A DNA stretch of 64,000 nt from an uncultured Fibrobacter sp. (lineage in GTDB: Bacteria > Fibrobacterota > Fibrobacteria > Fibrobacterales > Fibrobacteraceae). The position numbers were made by a program, and so were the translations under genes. The notes beneath the pieces are model-generated. The model was not told where the DNA came from, made no database searches, and saw only the letters and a program-made list of their open reading frames with translations. The stretch covers positions 62,001 through 126,000 of the forward strand of contig CAMJQW010000001.1 of assembly GCA_946408125.1 (NCBI GenBank), in the 5' to 3' direction. Below are positions 1,917-63,718 of this stretch, piece by piece; position 1 is the stretch's first letter; each line of letters begins with the position of its first letter.

Positions 1917-1922
1917 AATATA
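1917..1922 (-). promoter_or_regulatory. -10 box of the hydrolase-like gene (near-leaderless)
   Basis: TATATT on the minus strand, 7 nt before the ATG at 1909. With normal -10 geometry transcription would begin at about 1910, one base before the start codon. No Shine-Dalgarno site is possible in that space. Confidence 0.5.
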
Positions 1923-4459: not shown

Positions 4460-4488
4460 TTGCACAATTTTGAGTAATTTGCTAAAAT
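4460..4488 (+). promoter_or_regulatory. Promoter of tRNA-Gln
   Basis: TTGCAC (4460-4465), a 17-bp spacer, then TAAAAT (4483-4488). Predicted transcription start is about 4495, five bases before the mature tRNA. This is a clean housekeeping-type promoter and a useful calibration for others in the window. Confidence 0.75.
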
Positions 4489-4499
4489 TGTGCCCACAT

Positions 4500-4570
4500 T
4501 GAGCTATGGTGTAACGGTAGCACAACAGATTCTGACTCTGTTTGTCTAGGTTCGAATCCTGGTAGCTCAA
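4500..4570 (+). tRNA. tRNA-Gln (anticodon CTG)
   Basis: A complete cloverleaf. The acceptor arms TGAGCTA (4500-4506) and TAGCTCA (4563-4569) pair fully. The anticodon stem ACAGA/TCTGT encloses the loop TTCTGAC with anticodon CTG. The T loop contains GTTCGAATC. The discriminator base is A at 4570. CCA is not encoded. A terminator follows 8 nt later. Confidence 0.95.
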
Positions 4571-4602: not shown

Positions 4603-4641
4603 GTTTGGTGCGAGCAACCCTAGCCACTAACCACTAATCAC

Positions 4642-4649
4642 TATATTTG
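4642..4649 (+). promoter_or_regulatory. TATATTTG -10 box, leaderless start of the RNA methyltransferase
   Basis: TATATTTG fits the FCB-group -10 consensus TAnnTTTG. The hexamer ends exactly 6 nt before the ATG at 4654, so the predicted first transcribed base is the A of the start codon. There is no ribosome binding site. Confidence 0.55.
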
Positions 4650-4653
4650 TGCT

Positions 4654-5412
4654 ATGGAATTCTTTGACTATTTCGAACAGGTCTACGGGGATCGCTGGCC
4701 CGCTCTGCTTGAAGCACTGAAGGGCGAGGGCAATGCGGTCCGGCTGCAGTTCGGGAAAACCCTCGAACCGTACTTTCTGGACGAGGCTTCGGTGTTCGCG
4801 GCGAAATTGCTCCCGGTGGAACCCGGCATGGATGTCCTCGACATGTGTGCCGCTCCCGGCGGAAAGACTTTGGTCCTTGCTTCCATGCTCCAGGGGGTAG
4901 GCTCCCTTCAGAGTAACGACCGTTCCCCGGATCGCCGCCTGCGCCTCCGGCATGTCATCGAGAATTCTCTCCCGCCGCAGTGGCGTTCCATCATAAACAT
5001 TACGGGCTATGACGGCGTCAAGTTCGGGCTTCACCGCAAGGAATCCTATGACCGCATCCTTTTGGATGCCCCTTGCTCGTCGGACCGCCATGTGCTCCAG
5101 TCCCCGACGCACCTTGCGGAATGGTCGGCCAAGAGGGTGAAACGGCTTTCCGTGGAGCAGGGCTCCCTGCTGGCGTCAGCGGTAGATGCCCTCAGGCCGG
5201 GTGGTGAAGTTGTTTATGGAACTTGCGCCCTGGCGCCGCTCGAAAATGATGCGGTTGTCGCGAAAATACTCAAAAAACGTCCTGCTATGGAAGTTGTTCG
5301 CCCGGATAATGTTCCCGAATGGGCGGAATGCACCGAATTTGGCTACCATGTGCTTCCCGATAGGGCGGGTGGATGTGGCCCCATTTATTGCGCAAGATTG
5401 CGTAAACGTTAA
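4654..5412 (+). CDS. NOP2/RsmB-family RNA cytosine-C5 methyltransferase
   Basis: A 252-residue SAM-dependent methyltransferase that should methylate C5 of a cytosine in rRNA or tRNA. The SAM-binding motif I is DMCAAPGGKT (63-72). Both family cysteines are present: Cys141 in the DAPCSS motif IV and Cys191 in the YGTCALAPLEND motif VI, one forming the covalent adduct and the other releasing it. The protein is shorter than RsmB or RsmF because the N-terminal NusB-like or PUA-like RNA-binding parts are missing, leaving essentially the catalytic domain, as in NSUN4-like proteins. The target base cannot be read from the sequence. The mRNA is predicted to be leaderless. Confidence 0.9.
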   Translation: MEFFDYFEQVYGDRWPALLEALKGEGNAVRLQFGKTLEPYFLDEASVFAAKLLPVEPGMDVLDMCAAPGGKTLVLASMLQGVGSLQSNDRSPDRRLRLRHVIENSLPPQWRSIINITGYDGVKFGLHRKESYDRILLDAPCSSDRHVLQSPTHLAEWSAKRVKRLSVEQGSLLASAVDALRPGGEVVYGTCALAPLENDAVVAKILKKRPAMEVVRPDNVPEWAECTEFGYHVLPDRAGGCGPIYCARLRKR

Positions 5413-5420
5413 TTTTTATA

Positions 5421-5428
5421 TATCTTTG
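5421..5428 (+). promoter_or_regulatory. TATCTTTG -10 box, leaderless start of the PEGA gene
   Basis: TATCTTTG matches TAnnTTTG. Six bases (TGGAAT) separate the hexamer from the ATG at 5433, so transcription is predicted to start at the A of the start codon. Confidence 0.5.
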
Positions 5429-5432
5429 GAAT

Positions 5433-6983
5433 ATGCTTAGACGAACTCTTTTCTTGTTGACGGCCTTGGCCCTGACGGGCGCTTGGGCCCAAGATGATTG
5501 GGACAATGTCCCGGCACAGGAATCTTCTGAACCACAAGCGCAGGAGACGGTAGTCGCCGATTCCGCGTCTGCATCCAGTTCGTCGGTAGAGGCTTCCGCT
5601 ACGGCAAGTTCCTCGAGCGTTGCTCCGGTATCCCGTGAGGTCCCTGTCCGCTATTGGGTCGCCGGGGATTCTGTTGAGCTCGAAGCTATTTTCGTGAAAA
5701 TTGAGAAAGATACGGTCTACCTGAAGGCTCCGACCGAAGCCGAGATGAAGAAGTTCGCCAAGCTGGAAGAGAAGGCGAATGTCGCTTTGCAGGAGAGCAA
5801 CGGCCAGGAAGTCGAAGAAGACGAAGACGAGGAAGTTGAAGTCAAGAAGGATACTGCCGAAATCATCATGACGGATGCGGTCAAGAATTCCATGGCCGAA
5901 GAGAGTGATTCCGCGAGGGCTGCCCGTGAAGCCGCGGAACAGCTGGCTCAGGATGCTTCGGATGACTTTGAAACCGCCTTGAAGAATGCAGAAATCGCGA
6001 AGGTCGAAGAAGAAATCCGCCAGCGCGAAATTCAGGACAGTATCGAGGCTGCCAACGCGAACCCGTTCATCAAGATTTTCAGGCTGAACCTGAAGCGCCT
6101 TTATAACCTCGAAGACAACGTGATGATTGACCTCTCGTTGTCCAATTACGTGGTTCCCGTGGTTGTCGAGGAAGAAGAACAAATTGAACTTTATCCTCCG
6201 GGAAATGCGAACCTTCTGGTCGTGTCGGCTCCGGCAGCCTGCTCGCTGTTCGTGAACGGTATTCCGCTCAAGCAGGTCGCTCCCGATACCATCAAGAATA
6301 TCAAGCCGGGCAAGTACACCATTTCTGTGATGCAGGTGCTCAAGGATGTGGAATGGTGGGGCTCCGCCGTTGTGAAAATTAACGCGGATAGCCTGAACAA
6401 GGTCGAGATCGCGGTCCAGCGCCCGTCGACAAGACTCACGCTCAATACCGACCCGGAAGCCGTAGAAGTGTTCATCGACGAGCAACCTACGGAAAACATT
6501 TTCCCGGACTATATCACGGACGTGGTGGTTGAAAATATCAAGCCGCAGCCGAGCGTGCAGCTGTATTTCCGCAAGGTCGGTTACCGCGACACGACTATCA
6601 CTACCGAAATCAGAGCGTACATGCCGAACCTCGTGAATGTCGAAATGACGCCGGTGCTCGACGACCTCGAATTCATCGAACAGCAGAACGCCTTCAACAA
6701 GGAACGTAGCCAGCGCCGCATTGGACGTGGCCTCTTGTGGGGCTCCATCGTTCCCTTCGTGGCTGGCGGCGTGATGTGGTTCTTGGCCGAACGCAACTGG
6801 AGCGATGCGGCCGACAAGAAGAAGGCTTACGAAAAGAGCGCCTTTGCAAGCGAAGATACCAAAAAGATGGTCAAGGACAATCACGACCTGAACAAGAGCG
6901 GCGATATCAAGGGCATAATTGCTGGCGGTTTGGGCGCCCTAGGCATAGGATTGCTGACCGCAGGTATCATACTTGCATTCTAG
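5433..6983 (+). CDS. Secreted PEGA-domain protein with C-terminal membrane segments
   Basis: A 516-residue exported protein. A signal peptide (about 1-19, cleaved after AWA) leads to a serine/glutamate-rich stretch and a very acidic segment (EVEEDEDEEVEV). A probable coiled coil runs at about 155-210. Two PEGA-type beta domains follow. The first is near 255-325 (NLLVVSAPAACSLFVNGIP, then KPGKYTISVM) and the second near 328-405 (TRLTLNTDPEAVEVFIDEQP, then FRKVGYRDTTITTEI). Two hydrophobic segments at about 432-450 and 495-515 end the chain, so the C-terminus is probably in the inner membrane. PEGA domains usually bind other envelope components; no catalytic site is visible. A TIGR02145 lipoprotein starts 30 nt downstream, probably in the same operon. 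Confidence 0.8.
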   Translation: MLRRTLFLLTALALTGAWAQDDWDNVPAQESSEPQAQETVVADSASASSSSVEASATASSSSVAPVSREVPVRYWVAGDSVELEAIFVKIEKDTVYLKAPTEAEMKKFAKLEEKANVALQESNGQEVEEDEDEEVEVKKDTAEIIMTDAVKNSMAEESDSARAAREAAEQLAQDASDDFETALKNAEIAKVEEEIRQREIQDSIEAANANPFIKIFRLNLKRLYNLEDNVMIDLSLSNYVVPVVVEEEEQIELYPPGNANLLVVSAPAACSLFVNGIPLKQVAPDTIKNIKPGKYTISVMQVLKDVEWWGSAVVKINADSLNKVEIAVQRPSTRLTLNTDPEAVEVFIDEQPTENIFPDYITDVVVENIKPQPSVQLYFRKVGYRDTTITTEIRAYMPNLVNVEMTPVLDDLEFIEQQNAFNKERSQRRIGRGLLWGSIVPFVAGGVMWFLAERNWSDAADKKKAYEKSAFASEDTKKMVKDNHDLNKSGDIKGIIAGGLGALGIGLLTAGIILAF

Positions 6984-8916: not shown

Positions 8917-8922
8917 TAGATT
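8917..8922 (+). promoter_or_regulatory. TAGATT -10 box, leaderless start
   Basis: TAGATT ends exactly 6 nt before the ATG at 8929, so transcription is predicted to begin at the start codon. It follows directly on the terminator of the upstream gene. Confidence 0.45.
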
Positions 8923-8928
8923 AAGGGT

Positions 8929-9693
8929 ATGCGAAAAATACTGCTATTGCTCTTAATTTTGGGAATGTCGGCTTTCGCACAGGAAGAACCGAAAAAGGGA
9001 GAAACGTCGAAGAAACCCGGCGGCCTCCTGGATGCTCTCTACCCGGTTTCTCAAGATGAGGCCATCGCGAAGGGACGGATTCTTGGCGGTGCGACGCTTT
9101 CGCTGATTCAGGGAACCACAGATGGCGATGCGCTGAATATCCTTATCGGCGACATATATGAGGGCGAAGGATATACGTTTACGGCGGAGCTGTTCGGTGG
9201 ATATTTTATCCGTAATGCCATGGCGGTGGGTGCCCATGCGGGTTATTCCCGTACTTGGTTCGACATTGATTTTTCGCTCCTCGAAGACCTGATGGATCAT
9301 TCGGAGCATCGCAAGTATGTGAGCAACGGATTCTTTGTTCGGCCGTTCCTCAAGAATTACCTGAAGGTATTTGATTCCCGCTTCATCTATTTCTTCAACG
9401 AGACATCGATTGGCCTCGAGTATTCCTATGGAATTTCGCAGACGGATGACGGCGAGGATATGGACAAGTCCAGACACCGCAAGTGGTCTATTGATGTGGG
9501 ACTCAATCCCGGCCTTTGCATCATGGTGCTGAACCGCTTTGCCTTCGAGACTTCGGTGGGCTTGCTCGGCTTGAGCACGAGCATCATGGAAGTCGAGGAA
9601 AATGACGAGTCCCATAGTGAATTTGTGTACAATATCGTGAATTTTACGATTAATTTGTTGGCTCTCGATTTTTCGTTGGTCTACTTTTTCTAG
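8929..9693 (+). CDS. Outer-membrane beta-barrel-like protein
   Basis: A 254-residue exported protein with a clear signal peptide (MRKILLLLLILGMSAFA, cut before QEE). After a lysine-rich linker, alternating amphipathic strands continue to the end. The chain closes with LALDFSLVYFF, an aromatic-terminated strand typical of outer-membrane barrels. The size suggests an 8- to 10-stranded barrel. There are no catalytic motifs and I cannot name a family. The next gene, a lipoprotein, starts 9 nt downstream after a strong AGGAGG site, so the two are cotranscribed and may act together at the outer membrane. Confidence 0.75.
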   Translation: MRKILLLLLILGMSAFAQEEPKKGETSKKPGGLLDALYPVSQDEAIAKGRILGGATLSLIQGTTDGDALNILIGDIYEGEGYTFTAELFGGYFIRNAMAVGAHAGYSRTWFDIDFSLLEDLMDHSEHRKYVSNGFFVRPFLKNYLKVFDSRFIYFFNETSIGLEYSYGISQTDDGEDMDKSRHRKWSIDVGLNPGLCIMVLNRFAFETSVGLLGLSTSIMEVEENDESHSEFVYNIVNFTINLLALDFSLVYFF

Positions 9694-16838: not shown

Positions 16839-17537
16839 CTACAGCGCTGTCATCACGTACAGGCCGATGCTCTTCTGGTCGTTGTTGTCTTCTTGCATGA
16901 CACCGATGTCGAAGTCCAGACGGACGCGTGTGGCACCGAGCGAGAGCTCTAGCTTCGGGATGATGTCAATCATGAAATCGTCCTGAAGGTTTCCCGCGCT
17001 TCCGGACATGCTGATTTCGGTCATGATCCGGAAGGCCTTTCCGAAATGAAGCGTGGGAATCATGCTGGTTGCAATCTTGACATATCCGTCTTGACCGGTA
17101 ACGCCGTCCAGGAAGCCGGCACGGAGTTCATAGAAACTCGAGAAACTCTTGGCGACATATTGCTCGAAGGCGTATGTGGCAACGATGGCGCTTCCGTTAT
17201 TGCGGTTGAGGCCGAAATAGCCGTCAATCTCGATAAACTTTCCGGGATTCAGCCTGTAGCGTCCGCCGATGTCGATGGACATCATCGAATGTTCCATCCG
17301 GTCGTATGTGAAGATGTCCATCTTTGCGCCGATATCGAAGTCCTTCGATACGGATCCGAGCATGTTTACCGGGAAAAGGACGTTGCTGCCGAACTCCGAA
17401 CGGAGGCCAACGCCTGCTCCGAATTTGGGGGCCGGCCTGCTGTCGGGCCCGAAGGTGTAGTGCATGTCCCAGATATGGTCAAGTGCGAAAGCGTTTATGG
17501 CGAAAGCGGCAATCAGGAGTGCGGCGAAGCGTTTCAT
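16839..17537 (-). CDS. Outer-membrane beta-barrel-like protein
   Basis: A 232-residue exported protein. The signal peptide is MKRFAALLIAAFAINAFA, cut before LDH. The mature part is a series of amphipathic strands with glycine/aromatic girdles (GAGVGLRSEFG, DIGGRYRLNPGKFIEIDGYFG, KLELSLGATRVRLDFDIGVM). It ends on the short strand KSIGLYVMTAL. I chose this start because it yields the signal peptide and is preceded by a TAAATT -10 box 8 nt upstream; longer upstream frames overlap hisC on the opposite strand. No specific family is recognised. It diverges from hisC. Confidence 0.75.
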   Translation of the reverse strand: MKRFAALLIAAFAINAFALDHIWDMHYTFGPDSRPAPKFGAGVGLRSEFGSNVLFPVNMLGSVSKDFDIGAKMDIFTYDRMEHSMMSIDIGGRYRLNPGKFIEIDGYFGLNRNNGSAIVATYAFEQYVAKSFSSFYELRAGFLDGVTGQDGYVKIATSMIPTLHFGKAFRIMTEISMSGSAGNLQDDFMIDIIPKLELSLGATRVRLDFDIGVMQEDNNDQKSIGLYVMTAL

Positions 17538-17545
17538 ATATGGTA

Positions 17546-17551
17546 AATTTA
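17546..17551 (-). promoter_or_regulatory. -10 box of the barrel protein (near-leaderless)
   Basis: TAAATT(TA) on the minus strand, 8 nt before the ATG at 17537. The predicted leader is about 2 nt. Confidence 0.4.
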
Positions 17552-24459: not shown

Positions 24460-24465
24460 TATATT
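24460..24465 (+). promoter_or_regulatory. -10 box of the FecR lipoprotein operon (near-leaderless)
   Basis: TATATT, nine bases before the ATG at 24475. The predicted leader is about 3 nt with no ribosome site. The intergenic region is divergent with the LPP20-type gene. Confidence 0.45.
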
Positions 24466-24474
24466 TAGTGAAGT

Positions 24475-26037
24475 ATGAAAAAAACGATGAACTTACTATG
24501 GCTATCGGCATTGTTGTCGCTGGCCCTTGTCGCTTGTAAAGACGAACCCAAGCCGCAGACCCTTGCGAAGGACGGACCTGCAGCTTCGGAAACGGTTGCT
24601 GAGGAATTGCCTGCCAAGACGCTTATCAGGGCGAAGGTCCGCAAGTCTCTGGGCGAAGCCGATTTCACTCGCGGGACTGTCGAAAAGTGGAAGCATGTAA
24701 GCGTCGGACAACGCATTATCGAGAAGGACCGCATCCGCACGGCGATCGAATCCGAAGTGGTTCTAGGGGTGGAGGACGGTTCCTCTCTCTGGATTACCGA
24801 GAATTCGGATGTGACGCTCACTGCCGAGATGTTTAATGCCATGAACCGCAAGGTGTCGGTGATGATCAAGAAAGGCCGCGTCCATTTCGATGTCCAGAAG
24901 CAGAAGGATGGCGACGGCATCGAGTTCAAGACGGGAACGGCCGTGGCCGCCATTCGTGGAACGGCGGGCTTCGTGGGCGAAGTCGGTGGGAAGATGGTCG
25001 CCTCTTTGAAAGAAGGTCGCGTGGAAGTGACTGACAAGAACGGCAAGACGGCCATGATTGTCAAGAACCAGACGGTCCTCGTGGACGACAAGAAGGGCGT
25101 GGTAAAACTCGACCTCCAGGCATCCGGTTCGCAGGCCCTTTCGAAAGTTTTGGATTCCCTCGTCAAATCCGCGCCTGAAGCGGACGTAGCACGAGAATTG
25201 GCTGTCGTGCTCAAGAAGTTTGATGCGGGCTACAAGGAACGCCGTAACGCATTTGAGAAAAGCCTGAAGTTCCAGGCGTCTGCGCTCCCGCCGGAAATCT
25301 ATTTCCCGAACGTGACGCTACAGGCCCGCGTGAATCCGGGTGTCATCGTGACCGTGCTCGGCGAGACGGATACGGTCGGTGCGAACGGAGTATACCAGCG
25401 CGTGTTTGAATGGGCTGAGGATGCTTACGGTACCAAGCGCTTCTTCGCAAACTGCAGCGATGGTGACGTAGAAATCCCGTGCTTCATGTGGACGACCGAA
25501 TACGTGCCTGCCGCTCCGGCAGAACCTGCCGCGGATACGGCTGTTCAGGAAAATGCCGAGGCAGAAAAGAATATCGCGCAGAAGAAGGATGCTTCGGCGA
25601 AGCCGGCCGAAGAAAAGCCTGCGGAAGCGGCTAAGGATTTGAACCTTTCGGTCAAGTTCGCGGGTTCCGGTACTGAAAAAGTTCATAACCCGACGGAACA
25701 GTATTCTGCCCGCCTGAGGGTGTCGCTTGGAGGCATTTCTGCTTCCGATCTCGGGCAGCTGAAATCCATCGTGCTGAAGCGTGGCGGACAAGTCGTAGAA
25801 ACTGTTGCCGCGAATGCGATGACATCGCTGAATTATGATTTCAGGCAATCCATCGAGCGTAACAAGATTGCTCATTTCGAGGTGGAAGTCACTCTCAAGA
25901 ATGGCAAGGTGTTCAAGGCGAACAAGACCTACGAAGTTTACTGCAACCCGCGTAACCACGTGGGCGGCGAAGATGCCGTCGGACTCGACGAAGAATACGA
26001 ACAGCTCAAGTCCCGTGGAATGTTGAAGGAAGAATAG
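24475..26037 (+). CDS. FecR-domain lipoprotein
   Basis: A 520-residue lipoprotein (lipobox LVAC, Cys21). A FecR-type domain spans about 55-190, with VGQRIIEKDRIRTAIESEVVLGVEDGSSLWITENS and the hallmark FKTGTAVAAIRGTAGFVGE, followed by a strand series ending VKNQTVLVDDK. A helical segment, a beta domain and an alanine/glutamate-rich linker (about 340-385) follow, then a C-terminal immunoglobulin-like domain. FecR normally relays a signal from a TonB receptor to a sigma factor; neither is nearby, and here the protein is outer-membrane anchored instead of inner-membrane. It shares the FKTGTA.AAIRGT motif and C-terminal domain style with the FecR protein at 46953-48980. It heads a three-gene operon. 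Confidence 0.85.
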   Translation: MKKTMNLLWLSALLSLALVACKDEPKPQTLAKDGPAASETVAEELPAKTLIRAKVRKSLGEADFTRGTVEKWKHVSVGQRIIEKDRIRTAIESEVVLGVEDGSSLWITENSDVTLTAEMFNAMNRKVSVMIKKGRVHFDVQKQKDGDGIEFKTGTAVAAIRGTAGFVGEVGGKMVASLKEGRVEVTDKNGKTAMIVKNQTVLVDDKKGVVKLDLQASGSQALSKVLDSLVKSAPEADVARELAVVLKKFDAGYKERRNAFEKSLKFQASALPPEIYFPNVTLQARVNPGVIVTVLGETDTVGANGVYQRVFEWAEDAYGTKRFFANCSDGDVEIPCFMWTTEYVPAAPAEPAADTAVQENAEAEKNIAQKKDASAKPAEEKPAEAAKDLNLSVKFAGSGTEKVHNPTEQYSARLRVSLGGISASDLGQLKSIVLKRGGQVVETVAANAMTSLNYDFRQSIERNKIAHFEVEVTLKNGKVFKANKTYEVYCNPRNHVGGEDAVGLDEEYEQLKSRGMLKEE

Positions 26038-28220: not shown

Positions 28221-28946
28221 TTAGAGAAGCTTCCCGAGGGCCACGATGGCGGCTGTGCGGGCGCGTAGACGCGTGTTGCCGAGCTTCATCAGTTCGACCT
28301 TTCCGGCAGTAAATTTTTTAGCAAGTTCGATTTCGCGAGGCGAGAAACCGCCTTCGGGGCCGATGAGTATTGTGACCGGCTTTGTGCTTCCTGTAGCTAC
28401 GCGGGAGGAAATGGTGGGCAGGGAATCGTCCCCGTCGATGTCGCAGAGGATGATGTCACCATTGTATGCTTCCAGCCAGCGGTCGAATTCGACGGGGCCT
28501 TCGATCCTCGTGAGCCACGGCTTCTTGGACTGCTTGAGGCTGACGAGGCTCTTGAGTTCCGAGCGGCGGACAGTCTTGTGCAGGTCGGAGTTCTTGGGTT
28601 CCTGGGAATAGTCGGTGCGCAGGAAGGTAATGCTGTCCAGTTCCGTCTGGGCCGCATGGAAGACGACTTCTTCCAGCGCGTCGTCCTTTAGACATCCGAT
28701 AGCGAGATTTAACAGCGGCCGGGGCATGGGGGCGTCTTCGACGGAGTCAATATGGACGGTGCATGCCCTGGAATCGGCCTTCACGACGCTCGCGTCGGCG
28801 TAATGACCCTTGCCGTCACAGAGCTGCAGGACGTCTCCGGCCACGGCACGGCATACGCGGATGGCGTGGTTGCTCTCGGTTTCGTCGAGCTCGGTATCGC
28901 CTACGGCGATGAGTGGGCAGTAAAAGCGACTGTCAGGCGTTTTCAT
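28221..28946 (-). CDS. rsmE: 16S rRNA m3U1498 methyltransferase RsmE
   Basis: A 241-residue SPOUT-class methyltransferase that methylates N3 of U1498 in 16S rRNA. An N-terminal PUA-like part (SNHAIRVCRAVAGDVLQLCDGKG) precedes the knotted SAM-binding domain, with IGPEGGFSPREIELA and LGNTRLRARTAAIVALG. The last motif usually reads LRTETA; here Arg-Ala replaces Glu-Thr, a conservative family variant. It is transcribed divergently from the HAD gene through overlapping promoters, both predicted leaderless. Confidence 0.9.
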   Translation of the reverse strand: MKTPDSRFYCPLIAVGDTELDETESNHAIRVCRAVAGDVLQLCDGKGHYADASVVKADSRACTVHIDSVEDAPMPRPLLNLAIGCLKDDALEEVVFHAAQTELDSITFLRTDYSQEPKNSDLHKTVRRSELKSLVSLKQSKKPWLTRIEGPVEFDRWLEAYNGDIILCDIDGDDSLPTISSRVATGSTKPVTILIGPEGGFSPREIELAKKFTAGKVELMKLGNTRLRARTAAIVALGKLL

Positions 28947-28950
28947 GTTT

Positions 28951-28958
28951 CAAAAATA
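28951..28958 (-). promoter_or_regulatory. TATTTTTG -10 box, leaderless start of rsmE
   Basis: TATTTTTG matches TAnnTTTG on the minus strand. Exactly 6 nt (TGAAAC) separate the hexamer from the ATG at 28946. Confidence 0.5.
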
Positions 28959-28969
28959 AAAAAATATGC

Positions 28970-28975
28970 TATATT
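28970..28975 (+). promoter_or_regulatory. -10 box of the HAD gene (near-leaderless GTG)
   Basis: TATATT, 7 nt before the GTG at 28983. It lies only 12 bp from the opposing rsmE -10 box, so the two promoters probably exclude each other. Confidence 0.5.
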
Positions 28976-28982
28976 CATCCAT

Positions 28983-29771
28983 GTGAGTTGTCCTGTTAAA
29001 GTTGTTGTTTTTGATTTGGACGGAACCCTTTATCTGAGCGGCCGTCCGTATCCGAAGGCCGTGAAGACCGTAAATGAAGTGGCTAAACGCGTTCCGGTCT
29101 ACTACCTCAGCAACAATACGAGCAAGTCGCCGGTCTTTTATGAAAACCGGCTGAAGGTCATGGGGCTCCCGCTCCGTGACGACGCCATCATTTCGGCCCT
29201 TTACCTTTCCTTGGAAGCGATTCACGAAAAGGGAATCAAGAACGTATTTTTCTTTGCGAATCCGGAAGTGTTCGAATGGTTTGCCGCACAGGACCCGAGC
29301 CTCAATTTACATCCTTCCGTAGCCGATACGGAACTCGTGCTCGTTGCTTACCATAACAGCTTTGATTACCGCGAACTTTGTGAACTCAGTTTCCGCGTGC
29401 AGCGTGGAATTCCTTTCTGGGTGACACATACGGATTTCGTCTGCCCCGATGCGAACGGTCCCGTGCCGGACATCGGAAGCTTCATGGCGTTACTCAAGAC
29501 TGCGTACGGCGTGGAACCGGAGCGTAGCTTCGGCAAGCCGAATTCGGCCATGCTTTCGAACCTGCTAAAAAAATATAAGCCGGAAGAAATTCTTTTCGTA
29601 GGTGACCGGCTCTATACGGATTTTGAACTTGCGAAACGCGCCGGTTGCAGGTTTGTACTGCCGTTGTGCGGCGAGACCAAGCGTGCCGACGTAGAGAAGC
29701 TTGACGTGAAGCCCGAACTTGTGGTGGATATGGTCAGTGACATCGATTTCGGCAAGTTCCTTGACGGGTAA
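28983..29771 (+). CDS. HAD-superfamily phosphatase, NagD-like (class IIA)
   Basis: A 262-residue HAD hydrolase. Motif I is VVVFDLDGTLYL, with nucleophile Asp11 and general acid Asp13. Motif II lies in YYLSNNTSKSP, the class IIA style, and motif III/IV is GKPNSAMLSNLLKKY followed by LFVGDRLYTDFELAKRAGC. The cap domain is of the NagD/phosphoglycolate type. Substrate is probably a small phosphate ester and cannot be set from the sequence. The start is GTG at 28983: the ATG two bases earlier is followed at once by TGA, and no other start fits the promoter. Confidence 0.88.
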   Translation: MSCPVKVVVFDLDGTLYLSGRPYPKAVKTVNEVAKRVPVYYLSNNTSKSPVFYENRLKVMGLPLRDDAIISALYLSLEAIHEKGIKNVFFFANPEVFEWFAAQDPSLNLHPSVADTELVLVAYHNSFDYRELCELSFRVQRGIPFWVTHTDFVCPDANGPVPDIGSFMALLKTAYGVEPERSFGKPNSAMLSNLLKKYKPEEILFVGDRLYTDFELAKRAGCRFVLPLCGETKRADVEKLDVKPELVVDMVSDIDFGKFLDG

Positions 29772-34788: not shown

Positions 34789-34796
34789 TAATTTTT
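34789..34796 (+). promoter_or_regulatory. TAATTTTT -10 box, leaderless GTG start of the PAP2 gene
   Basis: TAATTT followed by exactly 6 nt (TTTGCC) and the GTG at 34801. There is no ribosome site. A TATAAT 9 bp further up is an alternative -10. Confidence 0.4.
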
Positions 34797-34800
34797 TGCC

Positions 34801-35631
34801 GTGCCCTTTAATCCAGTCAAAAAAAGCCTCCGTGCGGGATTATTTCTAGCGTTGTCCGTGTTCTGTGCTACGTCGTATGCGCAGGTCGAGGATAGCCGGC
34901 ATTACGAGCTGTCCTGGCGTCGGGATATGCCCCTGACATTCTTTGCCGCCTTTGCGAGCGTGTACGGAAACTACCGCTATTCGCAGACGGGAGTTCCTGC
35001 CGAAGAGGACGTGTTCTTGCAATCAAGACTGCTTCCGTGGGATAGGCCTGTCGCGGGCCGTTACAACGAGACTGCAGACAAAGTAAGCGATTGGGCAGTG
35101 GTGCTGGGAATCACTCCGTTGGCCCTGGCCGGCTATTCATGGTATGGCGGAGATGCCTCGGGAAAAGATTTTGCGGCGTACACGCTGATGTTTGCGCAGG
35201 CAATCGCCTTGCAGAGCGGTTTTAATTTGCTGATCCGCTCGACGCAGCTGTGGCCACGCCCGTACATATACGCGACCGAAGGCGAAGGTGCCGAAAAGGC
35301 GCGCGAAGCACGTGGAGAAGCCTACGGGAGTTTCTTTAGCGGGCACACGTCCGCGGCATTCACGATAGCCGTCTTCACGGGAGAATGGTTCAGCGAGGTA
35401 TATCCTGCTTCTCCTTATAGGGGCATCGTGTGGGCAAGCTCGCTTTCTGCCGCGGGAATGGTCGGTGCCTTGCGCATTGCCGCGGGCAAGCATTATCCGT
35501 CGGACGTTATTGTCGGAGCCCTTGTCGGGACTGGAATCAGCTTGTCCGTCATTCGCCTGCACCGCGTGAAAAACGAAAGGGTCTCGCTTATCGCGGGACC
35601 CAATACTCTTGGCATATCAGTCCGCTTCTAG
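34801..35631 (+). CDS. PAP2-family phosphatase, exported
   Basis: A 276-residue membrane-associated phosphatase of the PAP2 superfamily, acting on lipid or isoprenoid phosphates or similar esters. A signal peptide (about 1-27, ending SYA) is present. The three active-site motifs are RSTQLWPRP (Arg replacing the usual Lys of KxxxxxxRP), FSGHTSAA with the catalytic histidine, and RIAAGKHYPSD with the nucleophilic histidine and its aspartate. Several hydrophobic helices surround them. The GTG start at 34801 suits a predicted leaderless mRNA. It diverges from the ArsR-methyltransferase gene. Confidence 0.85.
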   Translation: MPFNPVKKSLRAGLFLALSVFCATSYAQVEDSRHYELSWRRDMPLTFFAAFASVYGNYRYSQTGVPAEEDVFLQSRLLPWDRPVAGRYNETADKVSDWAVVLGITPLALAGYSWYGGDASGKDFAAYTLMFAQAIALQSGFNLLIRSTQLWPRPYIYATEGEGAEKAREARGEAYGSFFSGHTSAAFTIAVFTGEWFSEVYPASPYRGIVWASSLSAAGMVGALRIAAGKHYPSDVIVGALVGTGISLSVIRLHRVKNERVSLIAGPNTLGISVRF

Positions 35632-38721: not shown

Positions 38722-38727
38722 TATATT
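38722..38727 (+). promoter_or_regulatory. TATATT -10 box, leaderless start of the phosphoesterase
   Basis: TATATT followed by exactly 6 nt (TCGTTC) and the ATG at 38734. The predicted first base is the start codon A. Confidence 0.5.
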
Positions 38728-38733
38728 TCGTTC

Positions 38734-39726
38734 ATGTTCCCATCCATAGACTTTATCGGCGATATCCACGGGCATTACGAGGAGCTGCGTCTGCTGCTCA
38801 CGAAGCTCGGTTATGTGGAATCGCAGGGGAGCTTCCGCTATCCGGGACGTACGCGTACCGTGGTGTTTCTCGGAGACTACATCGACCGCGGGAACCAGGC
38901 GCGCGATGTGGTGAACCTGGTGCGGGCCATGCGCGATTCCGGGGATGCGGTTGCCCTGATGGGAAATCATGAATTCAATGCGCTTTGCTTTTGGCACCTG
39001 AATGGAGCGGGAGGTGCGCACGTCATTCACTGCATCCCTGGCGGTTACCTGCGCGAACATTCCTTCAACAAGGTGGCGATACACGCGAAGACGGTCGAAT
39101 GCTACAAGGGCCGCAAGGAAGAATTCCGCGAGATGCTGGAATTCTTCAGGACGTTGCCGTTCTACCTGGAAACGGACCTGTTCCGCGCCCAACACGCCTG
39201 CTTTGACCATGGCGCGGCTGCGAAGCTCGATGCCGAGGGAATACACAGTTTTGCTGACGGAAATTTCGACGATCTGATTGCGCGTGCGAACGACCAGTTC
39301 AACGAGTATGACGATTCGCTCTTCGATCCGATAAACTTTTTCTTGAAGGGCCCTGAGATGGACCTGCCTGACGGGATAACTTTCCGCGATAGCGAGAATG
39401 TCTTGCGCAAGCGGGCGAGGATCCGGTGGTGGATTGACCCGAAAGGCAAAACCTTGCGAGAACTCGCGTTCCAGCCGGGAGTGGAGCTGCCGGCCTGCAA
39501 GGCTCCCGCGGACATATGCGGGCATGATTTCTATGGCGAAGATGAACGACCCGTGTTCTTTGGCCATTATTGGCTTACGGGAATGCCTCAGCTGATCCGC
39601 CATAACGTATGCTGCCTCGATTACAGTGTTGCGGGCTACCGTGGTGACGGGCGTCTTGTCGCTTACCGCTTCGACGGAGAACAGCGCCTGGACGAAAGCA
39701 AGTTCGTGTGGGTGGAGGCAATATAA
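38734..39726 (+). CDS. PPP-type calcineurin-like phosphoesterase
   Basis: A 330-residue metallophosphoesterase of the PPP type (protein phosphatase or diadenosine tetraphosphatase-like). Metal-site motifs are GDIHG (9-13), GDYIDRG (47-53) and GNHE (77-80), with a later histidine in FFGHYWL. A central insertion of about 120 residues (roughly 110-230) is larger than in the Ap4A hydrolases. Substrate is not decidable. Its stop is 2 nt before the ResB-CcsA start, so the genes are probably cotranscribed. Confidence 0.85.
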   Translation: MFPSIDFIGDIHGHYEELRLLLTKLGYVESQGSFRYPGRTRTVVFLGDYIDRGNQARDVVNLVRAMRDSGDAVALMGNHEFNALCFWHLNGAGGAHVIHCIPGGYLREHSFNKVAIHAKTVECYKGRKEEFREMLEFFRTLPFYLETDLFRAQHACFDHGAAAKLDAEGIHSFADGNFDDLIARANDQFNEYDDSLFDPINFFLKGPEMDLPDGITFRDSENVLRKRARIRWWIDPKGKTLRELAFQPGVELPACKAPADICGHDFYGEDERPVFFGHYWLTGMPQLIRHNVCCLDYSVAGYRGDGRLVAYRFDGEQRLDESKFVWVEAI

Positions 39727-51333: not shown

Positions 51334-51344
51334 CCTTCATTTTA

Positions 51345-51713
51345 GGGTAGTTATAAGCCGGGTTCTGTACCCCTTGCGGGGCGATGACCATCTCTCTGGA
51401 CGAATCGTTACCGACCGCCTCAAGCGACCTACCCGGATATCCAGCTGGCACGGGCCGCACCAGGTTCTTGCGAACGGAATCCTGCTTGGTCTTGCACCGG
51501 ATGAGGTTTACCATGCCATCCCTGTCACCAGGAATGCGGTGAGCTCTTACCTCGCCATTTCACCCTTACCGGACACAGGCCGAAACCCATGCCTGGCGGT
51601 TTGCTTTCTGTTGCACTTTCTGTCGCGTTTCCGCGCCTGGACGTTATCCAGCATCCTGCCCTGTGGTGCCCGGACTTTCCTCCAGCATTGCTGCCGGCGG
51701 CCATCCGCCACCC
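51345..51713 (-). ncRNA. rnpB: RNase P RNA, bacterial class A
   Basis: The catalytic RNA that matures tRNA 5' ends. On the minus strand the 5' conserved GAGGAAAGTCCGGGC (CR-I) lies near 51680, and the 3' conserved ACAGAACCCGGCTTAT (CR-V) near 51352-51367. The P1 stem can be closed by GGGTGG (51708-51713) with CTACCC (51345-51350), which sets the ends. The length, about 369 nt, is normal. A TAAATTTG -10 box just upstream predicts a start at 51714, matching the P1-based end within one base. Confidence 0.92.
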
Positions 51714-51718
51714 GCGAA

Positions 51719-51726
51719 CAAATTTA
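51719..51726 (-). promoter_or_regulatory. TAAATTTG -10 box of rnpB
   Basis: An exact TAnnTTTG. A TTTCCA with a 17-bp spacer may be the -35. Predicted start at 51714 agrees with the RNA's structural 5' end. Confidence 0.65.
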
Positions 51727-52577: not shown

Positions 52578-52634
52578 CTATTGTCGTGACTACTTGCTCG
52601 AATAGCTTCAAAATTTTTTTATATTGGGAAAATT
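52578..52634. other. Short AT-rich spacer with the Omp85-like promoter
   Basis: Contains TTGCTC at 52594-52599 and the TATATT box at 52620. Nothing else is seen. Confidence 0.4.
52620..52625 (+). promoter_or_regulatory. TATATT -10 box of the Omp85-like gene (near-leaderless GTG)
   Basis: TATATT followed by GG, nine bases before the GTG at 52635. The predicted leader is 3 nt. Confidence 0.45.
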
Positions 52635-54395
52635 GTGAAATTTAGTCTTGTTAAAGTTTTTTGCATTTTTTCGTTTTTTTTTGCTGGGACGGCTTTTTCT
52701 CAACAACCGGCTGAATCTGCCGTAGATTCTTCCGCCGTGTTCCGTGTGGATGAAATCCGCTACGACATCGGGGATGTGTTCGACGATTCCCGTGTGCATA
52801 CCCGCTACGACAAACTGGCCTACGATTTTTTGAACTGGGTGCATATCGAGACCCGTGAGCATACCGTCCGCAAGCTGCTCCTGTTCAACGAGGGCGACTA
52901 CGTGAACCTCGACCTGATGCTCGAATCGGAACGCTTTTTGCGCGACCAGCGCTTTTTGAGCGACGCGAGCATTATCGTGGTGCAGGATAGCGGCAAGAAC
53001 ATCGCGAACGTGCACACGAGCGACAACTGGACCTTGACGGTCCCGGTCAGCTTCGGATTTTCGGGAAGCGAGTGGACGTACGACAACCTGAACTGGGGAA
53101 TCGGCGTACAGGAAAGCAACTTCCTCGGGCTGGGGCAACTGCTGGGCTTCTACTTCGGCCACGATGAATTCCGTGATATGTGGCAGGTGGAATACGGCGC
53201 CCCGCACTTCTTGCTGCGCTACAACCACCTGGACTTCCTGTACAGCTACAACACCGACGGCTACCTCGCGAGCTGGAAGATGTACCGCCCCTTCCTGAGC
53301 AGGAGCGTGAACCAGTGGGCGTATACGATTGCTGGCCTCAAGAACCAGCGCTTCGCCTATTTCTACGGAAGCGGAGACATGCCTCCGGGAGCGGTGACCT
53401 ACTCTACCGACAAGCCGCTCGATTCCCTGAACCTGCAGGAATATAACGGTGACAAGACGGTCGAATTCATGAAGGTCGAGGACTATATCGACGACTCGCT
53501 TTCCTTCCATCTCGGGCGTTCCTTCGGCGGGACGCAACGCAAGATTTACTTGGCGGGAACGTACGACTACCGGAGAATGACTGCACGTGAAGGCAAGCTC
53601 TTCCGCTACCTGTTTACCGACGGCGAAGACGCGTACGCCATCGATTCCGCTTCCGCCTGGAACGAGTGGCTGCCGGAACGCAAGGATTCCCGCGTGGGTG
53701 CCTATGTCGAGTATTCGAACCTCCGCTACGAGAAAATCAGGAACTACCATAACGCGAAGTGGACCGAGGACGTGGACAAGGGCTGGAAACTCAAGGCCCA
53801 GATTTCCAAGAACTACGAGCAGCTCGGTGCCGCCGACAACGATATCCGTTTGGACTTCTGGACGAACCTCTACCTGGGACGCCGCCACCATCACCTGAAC
53901 CTCTCGACGCAGACGTACTTCTACCTGGATCACGGCGAGCGCAGGGACTTCTTCGGGAAGGTCTTCGGCGAGTACATCTTCCACCCGAGCAACATGCTTT
54001 CTACGGCGGTCAAGGGCCAGGTCGACGTCTTTGACGACGCGCGGTACGGCTACCAGCTTTCGCTGGGCGGCTCGGAGGGCTTTGCCGGATTCCCGACCGG
54101 ATTCTATACGGGCCAGGCGCGCGTGTACGGCAATATCGAACAGCGCTGGTTCCCGGATTTCGAAATCCTGACGCTCGTGCCCGTGTTTGTCGGCTTCGCG
54201 AGCGTGGGCGAGACCGCGTGGGACCTGATGGACATTAACCGCGAAGACTTGATTTATGTGCTTGGCCTGGGGGCCCGCTTTGTGCAGACCAAGTCCATCA
54301 GCCGCCTCGTGAACAAGATCGATGTGAGTTTCCCGATGAACGGGGCGCGCAAACACGAACCTCATTTTTCCATCACGACGACATATTCGTTGTAG
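52635..54395 (+). CDS. Omp85/BamA-like outer-membrane protein with one POTRA-like domain
   Basis: A 586-residue exported protein; signal peptide about 1-22 (ending AFS). Residues about 48-125 resemble a POTRA domain (HTVRKLLLFNEGDYVNLDLMLESERFLRDQRFLSDASIIVVQDSGKNIANVHTSDNWTLTVP), the 'N-terminal hairpin, two helices, final strand' of Omp85 proteins. The rest is a long series of strands (NLNWGIGVQESNFLGLGQLLGFYFG) closing in HFSITTTYSL, consistent with a 16-stranded barrel. With one POTRA it is smaller than BamA and more like TamA-type or TpsB-type relatives; its substrate is unknown. GTG start with a near-leaderless promoter. A small membrane protein follows 12 nt downstream. Confidence 0.8.
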   Translation: MKFSLVKVFCIFSFFFAGTAFSQQPAESAVDSSAVFRVDEIRYDIGDVFDDSRVHTRYDKLAYDFLNWVHIETREHTVRKLLLFNEGDYVNLDLMLESERFLRDQRFLSDASIIVVQDSGKNIANVHTSDNWTLTVPVSFGFSGSEWTYDNLNWGIGVQESNFLGLGQLLGFYFGHDEFRDMWQVEYGAPHFLLRYNHLDFLYSYNTDGYLASWKMYRPFLSRSVNQWAYTIAGLKNQRFAYFYGSGDMPPGAVTYSTDKPLDSLNLQEYNGDKTVEFMKVEDYIDDSLSFHLGRSFGGTQRKIYLAGTYDYRRMTAREGKLFRYLFTDGEDAYAIDSASAWNEWLPERKDSRVGAYVEYSNLRYEKIRNYHNAKWTEDVDKGWKLKAQISKNYEQLGAADNDIRLDFWTNLYLGRRHHHLNLSTQTYFYLDHGERRDFFGKVFGEYIFHPSNMLSTAVKGQVDVFDDARYGYQLSLGGSEGFAGFPTGFYTGQARVYGNIEQRWFPDFEILTLVPVFVGFASVGETAWDLMDINREDLIYVLGLGARFVQTKSISRLVNKIDVSFPMNGARKHEPHFSITTTYSL

Positions 54396-59316: not shown

Positions 59317-62064
59317 TTACTTCAATTCCTTCAGCGCAGCTTCGTTCTTCGCGATAATGTCTTGCTGAGTAGCGAGCTTGGTGCGTTCGGCGTTCACGAC
59401 GGCTTCGGGAGCGCCGCTGACGAACTTCTGGTTCGCGAGCTTGCGTTCGATAGAAGCGGCGAATGCCTTGGCCTTCTCGATTTCCTTTTCCAGGCGGGCG
59501 ATTTCTGCAGCCGGGTCGAGGATACCTTCGAGCGGGATGTAGAGTTCGCCACCGGGCACCACGGCGCTGGCGCTGAACTTCGGCTTGGCGGCCTTCACGG
59601 CGACGCTCAGGTCAGAAAGACCCGAAAGCTCGGTGATGATTGCCATGCAGTCCTTCACGCTGGCTTCCGTTGCGGCGTCATCGACGCTCACCACGGCGCT
59701 GAGCTTGGTGGCGGGGCTCACGTTGTAGCGGCCACGCACGCCACGCACGCTTTCCACCACGGCGAATGCCTGGTCGAATGCGGCTTCGATCTTCGCGTCG
59801 ATGAGCGATTCGTCGGCCTTGGGCCATGCGCGGCTGATCACCATTTCGCTGCCCTGGAACAGGATGCTGTTGAGTTCTTCGGTAATGAACGGCATCACCG
59901 GGTGGAGCAGGTCAAGCACGTTCTTCAGCACGTAGCTGAGGATAGCCATGGCGTTCTTCTTTTCGGCGGTGAGCGTCTCGCTGTTGATCACGGCCTTCTT
60001 GATTTCAAGATAGCTGGAGCACACGTCGTCCCACACGAAGCGGTACAGGAACCCGGCGAGTTCGGCGAAGTGGTATTCTTCGAGCATGCGGGTGGCGTCC
60101 TTGATGGTCGTCTGCAGGCGGCTCAGAATCCACTTGTCTTCGAGCGCGAACAAGTTCTTGTCCATCGGGAGCTCGGCGGCGAGAGCGCCGGCCTGTTCGA
60201 GCTGCGGGTAAAGGAAGCGGCAGGCGTTCCACAGCTTGTTGCTGAAGTTACGGCCGATTTCGAACTTTTCGCTGGTGTTGATTTCGCGGCCATCCGGCTG
60301 CTTTTCCTTCTTCACCGGCAGGCGCACGTCCTGGTTGTCGGTGCAAAGGCTTGCCATCACGAAGCGCAGAGCGTCGGTACCGTACTTTTCTTCGATATCC
60401 ATCGGGTCCACGCCGTTGCCCTTGGACTTGCTCATGGTCTGGCCATTGCCGTCCAGAATCTTCGGGTGGATGTACACCGTGTGGAACGGAACCGTGCCCA
60501 TGTTTTCCTGGCTGAAGAGCACCATGCGGGCGACCCACAGCGTAATGATGTCGCGGCTCGTCACGAGCACGCTGGTGGGGTAGTAGCGCTTGAGCGTGTC
60601 GGTGTTTTCCGGCCAGCCCATCGTGGAGTGCGGCCACAAGCCACTGGAGAACCACGTGTCGAGCACGTCTTCTTCCTGCTTGAGCACGCGGCCCGGAACA
60701 GCGTCTTCCTTGAGGTCTTCTTCCTGGCTGCACACGAGGTAGCCGCCGTTTTCGGCCTTGTAGAAGTAGATGTCGTCGCGGCCGGCAAATGCGGCCTTCA
60801 GTTCGTCTTCGCTAGCGTCGGTGTGCCAGATAGGAATGCGGTGGCCCCACCAGAGCTGACGGCTGATGCACCAGTCGCGCTTTTCGGCGAGCCAGTCCAG
60901 ATACTTGTTGGCGTAACGTTCGGGGATAATCTTGATTTCGCCCGACTTCACGGCGTTCATCGCGTTTTCGGCGAGCACATCCATCTTCACGAACCACTGG
61001 TCGCTGAGGTACGGCTCGATCACGGTCTTGGAACGGTCGGAGTGGCCCACCTGCATCTCGTGGTCTTCCACCTTGATGAGGAGTCCGAGTTCCTCGAGAC
61101 CTGCCACCACGGCGTCGCGGGCGGCCTGGCCCTTGAGACCCTGGAACTTGCCGGCATTCTCGTTCAGGCTGCCGTCATCGTTCATGATGTTGATCATCGG
61201 GAGCTTGTGGCGCAGGCCCGTTGCATAGTCGTTCGGGTCATGGGCCGGAGTCACCTTCACGGAACCCGTACCGAAGTCCTTGTCCACGAGGATGGCGTCG
61301 GCAATCACCGGGATTTCGCGGTCAACGAACGGCACCTTCAGGGTCTTGCCGATGAAGTGCGCGTAGCGTTCGTCGTTGGGGTGCACGGCGAGGGCCGTAT
61401 CGCCCATGATCGTCTCCGGGCGGGTCGTAGAGACGGGGATGAATCCCGAACCGTCGGCCAGAGGATACTTGAACGTCCAGAAGTGGCCCTTCACGGTCTC
61501 GTAGTAGATTTCGTCGTCGGCGACGGCGGTCTGGAGCTTGGTATCCCAGTTCACCAGGCGCTTGCCGCGGTAGATGAGGCCCTTCTTGAACAGGTTGAAG
61601 AAGGCGTGACGCACGGCCTTAGCGCAGACCGGGTCGAGCGTGAAGCGCTGGCGGCTCCAGTCGCAGCTGACGCCGAGGCTCTTGAGCTGTTTCGTGATGC
61701 GGGCTTCGTATTCGTCCTTCCATTTCCAGATGCGTTCCACCAGGGCGTCGCGGCCAATGTCGTGGCGGGTCTTGTGTTCGTCCTGGAAAAGGCGCTTTTC
61801 GACGACTGCCTGCGTGGCGATACCCGCGTGGTCCGTACCCGGAATCCACAGCGTGTCGCGGCCCGTCTTACGGCGGTAGCGTACCAAAATGTCCTGGAGC
61901 GTATCGTTGAGCGCGTGTCCCAGATGGAGTGCGCCGGTAACGTTCGGGGGCGGAATCACGACCGAGAACGGTTCGCCCTTTCCGCTGGGTGCAAAACTGT
62001 TTTTTTCTGCCCAGGCGCTATGCCAACGGGCTTCCACATCTTTAGCGTTATAACGAGTTTCCAT
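59317..62064 (-). CDS. valS: Valyl-tRNA synthetase
   Basis: A 915-residue class I aminoacyl-tRNA synthetase. HIGH-type motif GALHLGHAL with PPPNVT before it, the CP1 editing domain (about 190-340, STTRPETIMGDTALAVHPND), the KMSKS-type TMSKSKGNG, anticodon-binding helices, and a C-terminal coiled coil (about 850-915, IARLEKEIEKAKAFAASIERKLANQ). Length is normal. I start at 62064: it gives the usual ME(T)RYNAKDVEARWHSAW beginning, and a TAAATTTG box 10 nt upstream predicts a 4-nt leader. A longer frame would pass through that promoter. Confidence 0.97.
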   Translation of the reverse strand: METRYNAKDVEARWHSAWAEKNSFAPSGKGEPFSVVIPPPNVTGALHLGHALNDTLQDILVRYRRKTGRDTLWIPGTDHAGIATQAVVEKRLFQDEHKTRHDIGRDALVERIWKWKDEYEARITKQLKSLGVSCDWSRQRFTLDPVCAKAVRHAFFNLFKKGLIYRGKRLVNWDTKLQTAVADDEIYYETVKGHFWTFKYPLADGSGFIPVSTTRPETIMGDTALAVHPNDERYAHFIGKTLKVPFVDREIPVIADAILVDKDFGTGSVKVTPAHDPNDYATGLRHKLPMINIMNDDGSLNENAGKFQGLKGQAARDAVVAGLEELGLLIKVEDHEMQVGHSDRSKTVIEPYLSDQWFVKMDVLAENAMNAVKSGEIKIIPERYANKYLDWLAEKRDWCISRQLWWGHRIPIWHTDASEDELKAAFAGRDDIYFYKAENGGYLVCSQEEDLKEDAVPGRVLKQEEDVLDTWFSSGLWPHSTMGWPENTDTLKRYYPTSVLVTSRDIITLWVARMVLFSQENMGTVPFHTVYIHPKILDGNGQTMSKSKGNGVDPMDIEEKYGTDALRFVMASLCTDNQDVRLPVKKEKQPDGREINTSEKFEIGRNFSNKLWNACRFLYPQLEQAGALAAELPMDKNLFALEDKWILSRLQTTIKDATRMLEEYHFAELAGFLYRFVWDDVCSSYLEIKKAVINSETLTAEKKNAMAILSYVLKNVLDLLHPVMPFITEELNSILFQGSEMVISRAWPKADESLIDAKIEAAFDQAFAVVESVRGVRGRYNVSPATKLSAVVSVDDAATEASVKDCMAIITELSGLSDLSVAVKAAKPKFSASAVVPGGELYIPLEGILDPAAEIARLEKEIEKAKAFAASIERKLANQKFVSGAPEAVVNAERTKLATQQDIIAKNEAALKELK

Positions 62065-62072
62065 AGTGGGCA

Positions 62073-62080
62073 CAAATTTA
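62073..62080 (-). promoter_or_regulatory. TAAATTTG -10 box of valS (near-leaderless)
   Basis: Exact TAnnTTTG on the minus strand, identical to the rnpB box. Hexamer to ATG is 10 nt, so the predicted leader is about 4 nt. Confidence 0.55.
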
Positions 62081-63677: not shown

Positions 63678-63718
63678 AATATAGCCCTTTTTGCCGATTC
63701 CGGCTAAGTTGAAACTTA
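63678..63718 (-). promoter_or_regulatory. Promoter with overlapping palindrome, TIGR02145 lipoprotein
   Basis: TATATT (63678-63683) is nine bases before the ATG, giving a predicted 3-nt leader. The -35 position overlaps a 14-bp palindrome, TAAGTT-GA-AACTTA (63705-63718), a possible operator. Confidence 0.4.

Follow-up and report, generated by a model that had tools for sequence, protein, structure and literature searches.

The window, a stretch of 64,000 nt from the draft genome of an uncultured Fibrobacter sp. (2.49 Mb, 98 contigs, 81% complete), reads TATATTTGTGCTATG at positions 4642–4656, where a TATATT hexamer stands immediately upstream of a gene for an RsmB/F-like rRNA methyltransferase (rsmF-like). 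The first-pass annotation had reported such hexamers, without a Shine–Dalgarno (SD) site, at thirteen start codons and had taken them for −10 boxes of leaderless or near-leaderless mRNAs. All 13 start codons are present together with their boxes, at gaps of 6 to 10 nt. The predicted elements, with those of two stable RNA genes, are as follows:

1917–1922, minus strand: −10 box TATATT, 7 nt before the ATG at 1909; the gene itself is uncertain
4483–4488, plus strand: −10-like TAAAAT(TG), 11 nt before the mature 5′ end of tRNA-Gln at 4500
4642–4647, plus strand: −10 box TATATT(TG), 6 nt before the ATG at 4654
4654–5412, plus strand: predicted leaderless gene, RsmB/F-like rRNA methyltransferase (Pfam PF01189)
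5421–5426, plus strand: −10 box TATCTT(TG), 6 nt before the ATG at 5433
8917–8922, plus strand: −10 box TAGATT, 6 nt before the ATG at 8929; the N-terminus resembles a signal peptide
17546–17551, minus strand: box TAAATT, 8 nt before the ATG at 17537; near-leaderless (predicted)
24460–24465, plus strand: box TATATT, 9 nt before the ATG at 24475, FecR-domain protein (Pfam); near-leaderless (predicted)
28953–28958, minus strand: −10 box TATTTT(TG), 6 nt before the ATG of rsmE (28221–28946, minus; Pfam)
28970–28975, plus strand: −10 box TATATT, 7 nt before the GTG at 28983, HAD-type hydrolase (Pfam), divergent from rsmE
34789–34794, plus strand: −10 box TAATTT, 6 nt before the GTG at 34801, PAP2 phosphatase (Pfam)
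38722–38727, plus strand: −10 box TATATT, 6 nt before the ATG at 38734, metallophosphatase (Pfam)
51721–51726, minus strand: −10 box TAAATT(TG), 6 nt before the Rfam 5′ end of rnpB (51340–51714, minus)
52620–52625, plus strand: box TATATT, 9 nt before the GTG at 52635; near-leaderless (predicted)
62075–62080, minus strand: box TAAATT(TG), 10 nt before the ATG at 62064 (valS, valyl-tRNA synthetase; Pfam); predicted leader of about 3 nt
63678–63683, minus strand: box TATATT, 9 nt (overlapping TATTTT at 7 nt) before the ATG at 63668, Fib_succ_major protein (Pfam)

The claim that SD sites are missing needs a small correction at 8929, 24475 and 63668, each of which has an SD-like word of 4–5 nt nearby. 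Since the words at 8929 and 63668 lie upstream of the box, they would be outside the predicted mRNA. The gene at 1909 (minus) is the least certain of the set because its ORF was not scored as coding and gave no Pfam hit. At rnpB and tRNA-Gln the same box lies, as had been proposed, at a fitting distance (6 and 11 nt) before the RNA 5′ ends. The start codons of rsmE and the divergent HAD hydrolase gene are only 36 bp apart (28947–28982), and this spacer contains one −10 box per strand, a compact arrangement that leaderless starts would make possible.

Spacing statistics were obtained from 828 kb of the same genome, sampled in stretches. Gene calling with a coding-potential model blind to upstream motifs yielded 633 genes, 603 of which entered the TAnnTT test; start codons were predicted by a home-made caller, except those fixed by orthologues. 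Here n is the number of nt between hexamer and start codon, and dinucleotide shuffles served as the null model for TAnnTT counts. The genome-wide distance plot proposed with the first-pass annotation gave a sharp peak: TAnnTT was found at n = 6/7 in 61 of 603 genes versus 8.6 ± 2.8 in shuffled sequence (z = 18.5), and the motif is thus clearly commoner at n = 6–7 than in shuffles. Against a background of 6.0 per position, we counted 32 occurrences at n = 6 (p about 1e-13) and 29 at n = 7 (p about 1e-11), followed by 10 at n = 8 (p 0.08), 13 at n = 9 (p 0.009) and 5 at n = 10 (not significant). These counts make the 6–7-nt class solid and the 8–10-nt class marginal. The exact word TATATT stood 6 nt before 12 starts and 7 nt before 15, and was never found at any of the positions 0–5 nt; a second, broad hump lay about 23–40 nt before starts, where leadered promoters belong. 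The peak was reproduced in a second Fibrobacter genome (G005; 24 of 275 genes, 5.2 expected) and in a different family of the same class (16 of 144, 1.1 expected). Treated by the same method, E. coli gave no spacing peak, and Deinococcus radiodurans MP1, a known leaderless species, gave a TAnnnT peak at n = 6–7 with a pyrimidine at −1 in 9 of 9 cases. A megablast search of the promoter against E. coli returned no match.

The base preceding the start codon was a pyrimidine in 58 of the 61 box genes, compared with 58% elsewhere (97% at n = 6, 93% at n = 7, about 50% at n = 8–9). An initiator should look like this if transcription begins (+1) at the A of AUG, and leadered promoters independently show a pyrimidine–purine step 6–7 nt after the hexamer. 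Stable RNA genes pointed the same way. Among 21 tRNA genes of this genome and G005, 16 carry a strict box that precedes the mature end by 10–21 nt. Many of these boxes read TATATTTGG, and many of the genes have a TTGACA-like −35 a further 16–18 nt upstream (mean 4.4 of 6 matches). The presence of the same box, often with such a −35, before tRNA genes identifies it as a −10 of the sigma-70 type. At leaderless mRNA promoters TTGACA matched no better than at random positions (mean 2.59 versus 2.75 of 6), and a TTGACA-like −35 was absent from leadered mRNA promoters too, unlike tRNA promoters; stable-RNA and mRNA promoters therefore appear to form two classes. Alignment of the leaderless boxes gave the consensus TTTTC-TAtaTTt without a −35 consensus. 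T and A at positions 3–4 and T at position 7 were enriched, which bears out the assignment to the FCB-group −10 (the −10/−7 box TAnnTTTG). The adjoining T-rich tract may act like an extended −10.

The box was found at 29 of 148 starts whose upstream neighbour is on the opposite strand (20%) versus 4 of 182 operon-internal starts (2%; p 1e-7). A signal for translation would be expected at either kind of start, so the preference for the beginnings of transcription units argues against that function. The excess over background corresponds to 8–9% of all genes: 16% for genes with an opposite-strand upstream neighbour, 12% for codirectional genes separated by 15–39 bp and 2% for tightly packed operon genes. 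The description of the pattern as widespread is accordingly right in that it extends through the genome, but it concerns a minority of genes. ATG is the start codon of 54 of 57 leaderless-class genes. A preference of the box for very short divergent spacers was only slight (22–25% under 150 bp, 11–17% above), and leaderless genes did not differ clearly from others in second-codon enrichment, AT-richness of the 5′ coding region or presence of signal peptides.

Four-nucleotide SD words were present in 12 of 61 box genes, close to chance (about 15%), versus 321 of 542 others (Fisher p 3e-9). Overall, 54% of genes and 67% of operon-internal genes have such words, which is not the general SD loss of the Bacteroidota type. 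Two relatives in the phylum have an intact anti-SD sequence, CCTCCTTT, in their 16S genes; the draft genome itself contains no 16S gene. The intact anti-SD and the SD words of most other genes, beside chance-level SD in the box class, support the earlier proposal that two initiation modes coexist.

Four of the genes were compared across the genus. For rsmE, TAnnTT at 6–7 nt and a −1 pyrimidine were present in 30 of 30 orthologues (64–100% protein identity), and the DNA upstream of the box is largely different among them. Gene 5433 has the box at 6–7 nt in all 11 orthologues with an alignable N-terminus. TAnnTT or TAnnTC was found at 6–7 nt in 18 of 30 metallophosphatase (38734) orthologues and in 16 of 30 orthologues of the rsmF-like gene (4654); in all 30 of the latter the start codon is aligned. 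The rsmF-like protein shows 72–89% identity to counterparts in numerous named Fibrobacter genomes, with many rumen and gut MAGs among them, which marks the source of the window as a Fibrobacter. Since about half of the orthologues lack the box in two of the four genes, it is not obligatory for every gene. By eye, the start codon of several box-less metallophosphatase orthologues overlaps the stop codon of an apparent upstream gene, which suggests that these genes have become part of an operon. The SD-like words seen where orthologues lack the box are partly upstream coding sequence and were excluded from the evidence.

Two further observations were made in these genomes. Arrays of heptanucleotides (among them AACCACT, GGTAGAC, ATGAATG and ACACATT) are a recurrent feature of intergenic DNA in Fibrobacter and in a related family, for example at 4616–4643 of the window and at L204 1–54 and 14717–14767, L261 16204–16245 and L268 4014–4039; period-7 arrays between genes number 19 in 200 kb from family f3 versus 1 in 199 kb of G040. 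In several rsmF-like orthologues the array reaches right to the −10 box. The product of valS (59317–62064; also G020:C31 and G055:C1), valyl-tRNA synthetase, is 98–99% identical across many Fibrobacter species, and the RsmE and rsmF-like proteins of those same species are mostly 67–89% identical. Extra partial copies of the C-terminal part of valS occur in several genomes, in two cases about 1–3 kb from the full gene. This pattern points to horizontal exchange, or else to an element that integrates at the valS 3′ end.

Across the phylum we counted TAnnTTT with Y at −1 before ATG over whole genomes and compared the spacing of 6 nt with a single control spacing of 11 nt. The ratio was 2.9-fold in Fibrobacter (25 genomes tallied), 2.1 in other genera of the same family and near 1.1 in some of its low-GC genera. 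Family f2 gave 19 (96 versus 5); at 65% GC its gene calls are unreliable, and pattern counts alone were used. Ratios were 3.7 and 2.4 in family f3, 1.3 in f4 and 0.8 in f5 (1–2 genomes each in f4 and f5), and 0.8–1.4 in other classes of the phylum. The leaderless signal is thus strong in three of the families that make up the class; beyond these it is weak or absent.

What the sequence statistics show is the box itself, its exact spacing, the initiator base, chance-level SD, the link to unit starts, conservation and the limits of the clade. In all likelihood, the housekeeping sigma factor uses the boxes as −10 elements, placed for leaderless and near-leaderless mRNAs, which would be read without SD pairing beside SD-leadered genes. 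The sigma factor would recognize the FCB-type box (T-rich/TTTTC-TAnnTT(TG)), and RNA polymerase would take the first base of the start codon, A (or G), as +1. With the box 6–7 nt away, the mRNA would begin at the start codon, with neither leader nor ribosome-binding site; with 8–10 nt, it would carry a leader of about 1–3 nt. Translation would then proceed without SD pairing, most other genes retaining SD leaders. We infer that transcription in the cell starts at the site set by the box and that translation is driven by recognition of a 5′-terminal AUG, as known from other bacteria. For n = 6–7 the leaderless reading is supported by spacing, −1 pyrimidine, context, SD level, tRNA boxes and conservation; the missing −35 consensus and the box-less orthologues of two genes count against it. 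For the 8–10-nt sites it is weaker, as these lack the −1 pyrimidine as a group; leaders of about 1–3 nt are the more likely reading there.

That the AT-rich box is instead a translation element, such as the S1 or A/U-rich standby sites for ribosomes in Bacteroidota, with transcription starting further upstream, would agree with the AT-rich non-canonical ribosome-binding sites described for FCB genomes (PMC9581028). It is very unlikely, given that the box is almost absent from operon-internal starts (4 of 182), which need translation signals too, that this word also stands before tRNA genes and rnpB, and that the spacing is exact to 1–2 nt with a −1 base constrained like an initiator and normal SD elsewhere. 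The modest number of genes in the window taken alone and the 8–10-nt sites, which rise only weakly above background, would favour chance AT-rich words in AT-rich upstream regions, and single sites at 8–10 nt may be of this kind. For n = 6–7 chance is refuted by the z value of 18.5, the sharp two-position peak and its reproduction in G005 and a second family, by whole-genome counts of 98 versus 19 for the two spacings and by the conservation at rsmE (30 of 30), and as a general explanation it is exceedingly improbable.

Alternatively, the abutting promoter could be minor or condition-specific, and a stronger one upstream could yield the leadered mRNA that is translated. A second TAnnTT does lie further upstream at some sites (e.g. 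5433, 28946 and 17537), and the SD-like words at 8929 and 63668 precede the box. Against this stand SD words at chance level across the class and very short divergent spacers, such as the 36-bp one shared by rsmE and the HAD gene, which leave little room for two leadered promoters; we consider it unlikely. A bolder extension of the leaderless reading would make this initiation a selected, clade-specific second mode of Fibrobacteria, with two rRNA methyltransferase genes, rsmE (30 of 30) and the rsmF-like gene (16 of 30), kept leaderless because the enzymes they encode modify the decoding region of the 16S rRNA, so that ribosome state and leaderless translation would be coupled by feedback. We regard this as quite improbable.

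Leaderless bacterial genes have been described before as TA-led genes (Zheng et al. 2011, PMC3160421), which share with the Fibrobacter set a TAnnnT about 12 bp before the start, read as a −10, the absence of SD and coexistence with SD-led genes. In that work the TA-led signal was found in 1 of 37 Bacteroidetes/Chlorobi genomes (2.4%), whereas here about 8–9% of genes carry TAnnTT(TG). The −10 motifs adjacent to ORFs in Deinococcus-Thermus are equal in anatomy and spacing but experimentally proven and involve about 30% of ORFs in Deinococcota (PMC12340547); the Fibrobacter cases are fewer and predicted from sequence. Bacteroidota promoters of sigma-A (sigma-ABfr) have the same −10/−7 box TAnnTTTG at −12 to −5 (PMC9723704, PMC7366714), and mapped starts in Flavobacterium psychrophilum place it at a geometry equal to n = 6 (PMC9723704). 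Leaderless mRNAs are rare there (5.5% in F. psychrophilum; leaders under 10 nt, 3.7% in B. thetaiotaomicron; PMC9723704, PMC7366714), and SD is lost in Bacteroidota but kept in Fibrobacter; Fibrobacteres SD logos have been reported as weak but detectable (PMC3155529). "Fibrobact" had no match in the main texts of PMC3160421, PMC12340547 and PMC5397173, and the domain-wide Fig. S7 of PMC12340547 may include Fibrobacterota. A partial literature search, in which survey figures and supplementary tables may cover the phylum, found no description of the leaderless mode in the Fibrobacter group and no paper joining Fibrobacter succinogenes with transcription start sites. What is new in Fibrobacterota is the extent, the type of box and the limits of the clade; the phenomenon of TA-led genes is already known.

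Fibrobacter species are major rumen cellulose degraders. With about a tenth of genes predicted to lack a leader, the boxes would correct the annotation of gene starts and promoters and would show genetic engineers which promoters need no ribosome-binding site. They would also matter for drugs whose action on leaderless mRNAs differs from that on leadered ones (PMC9581028). Fibrobacteria would thus offer a clade in which leaderless and SD-led initiation coexist, in which the box is gained or lost between orthologues, and in which the phylogenetic boundary runs inside one phylum.
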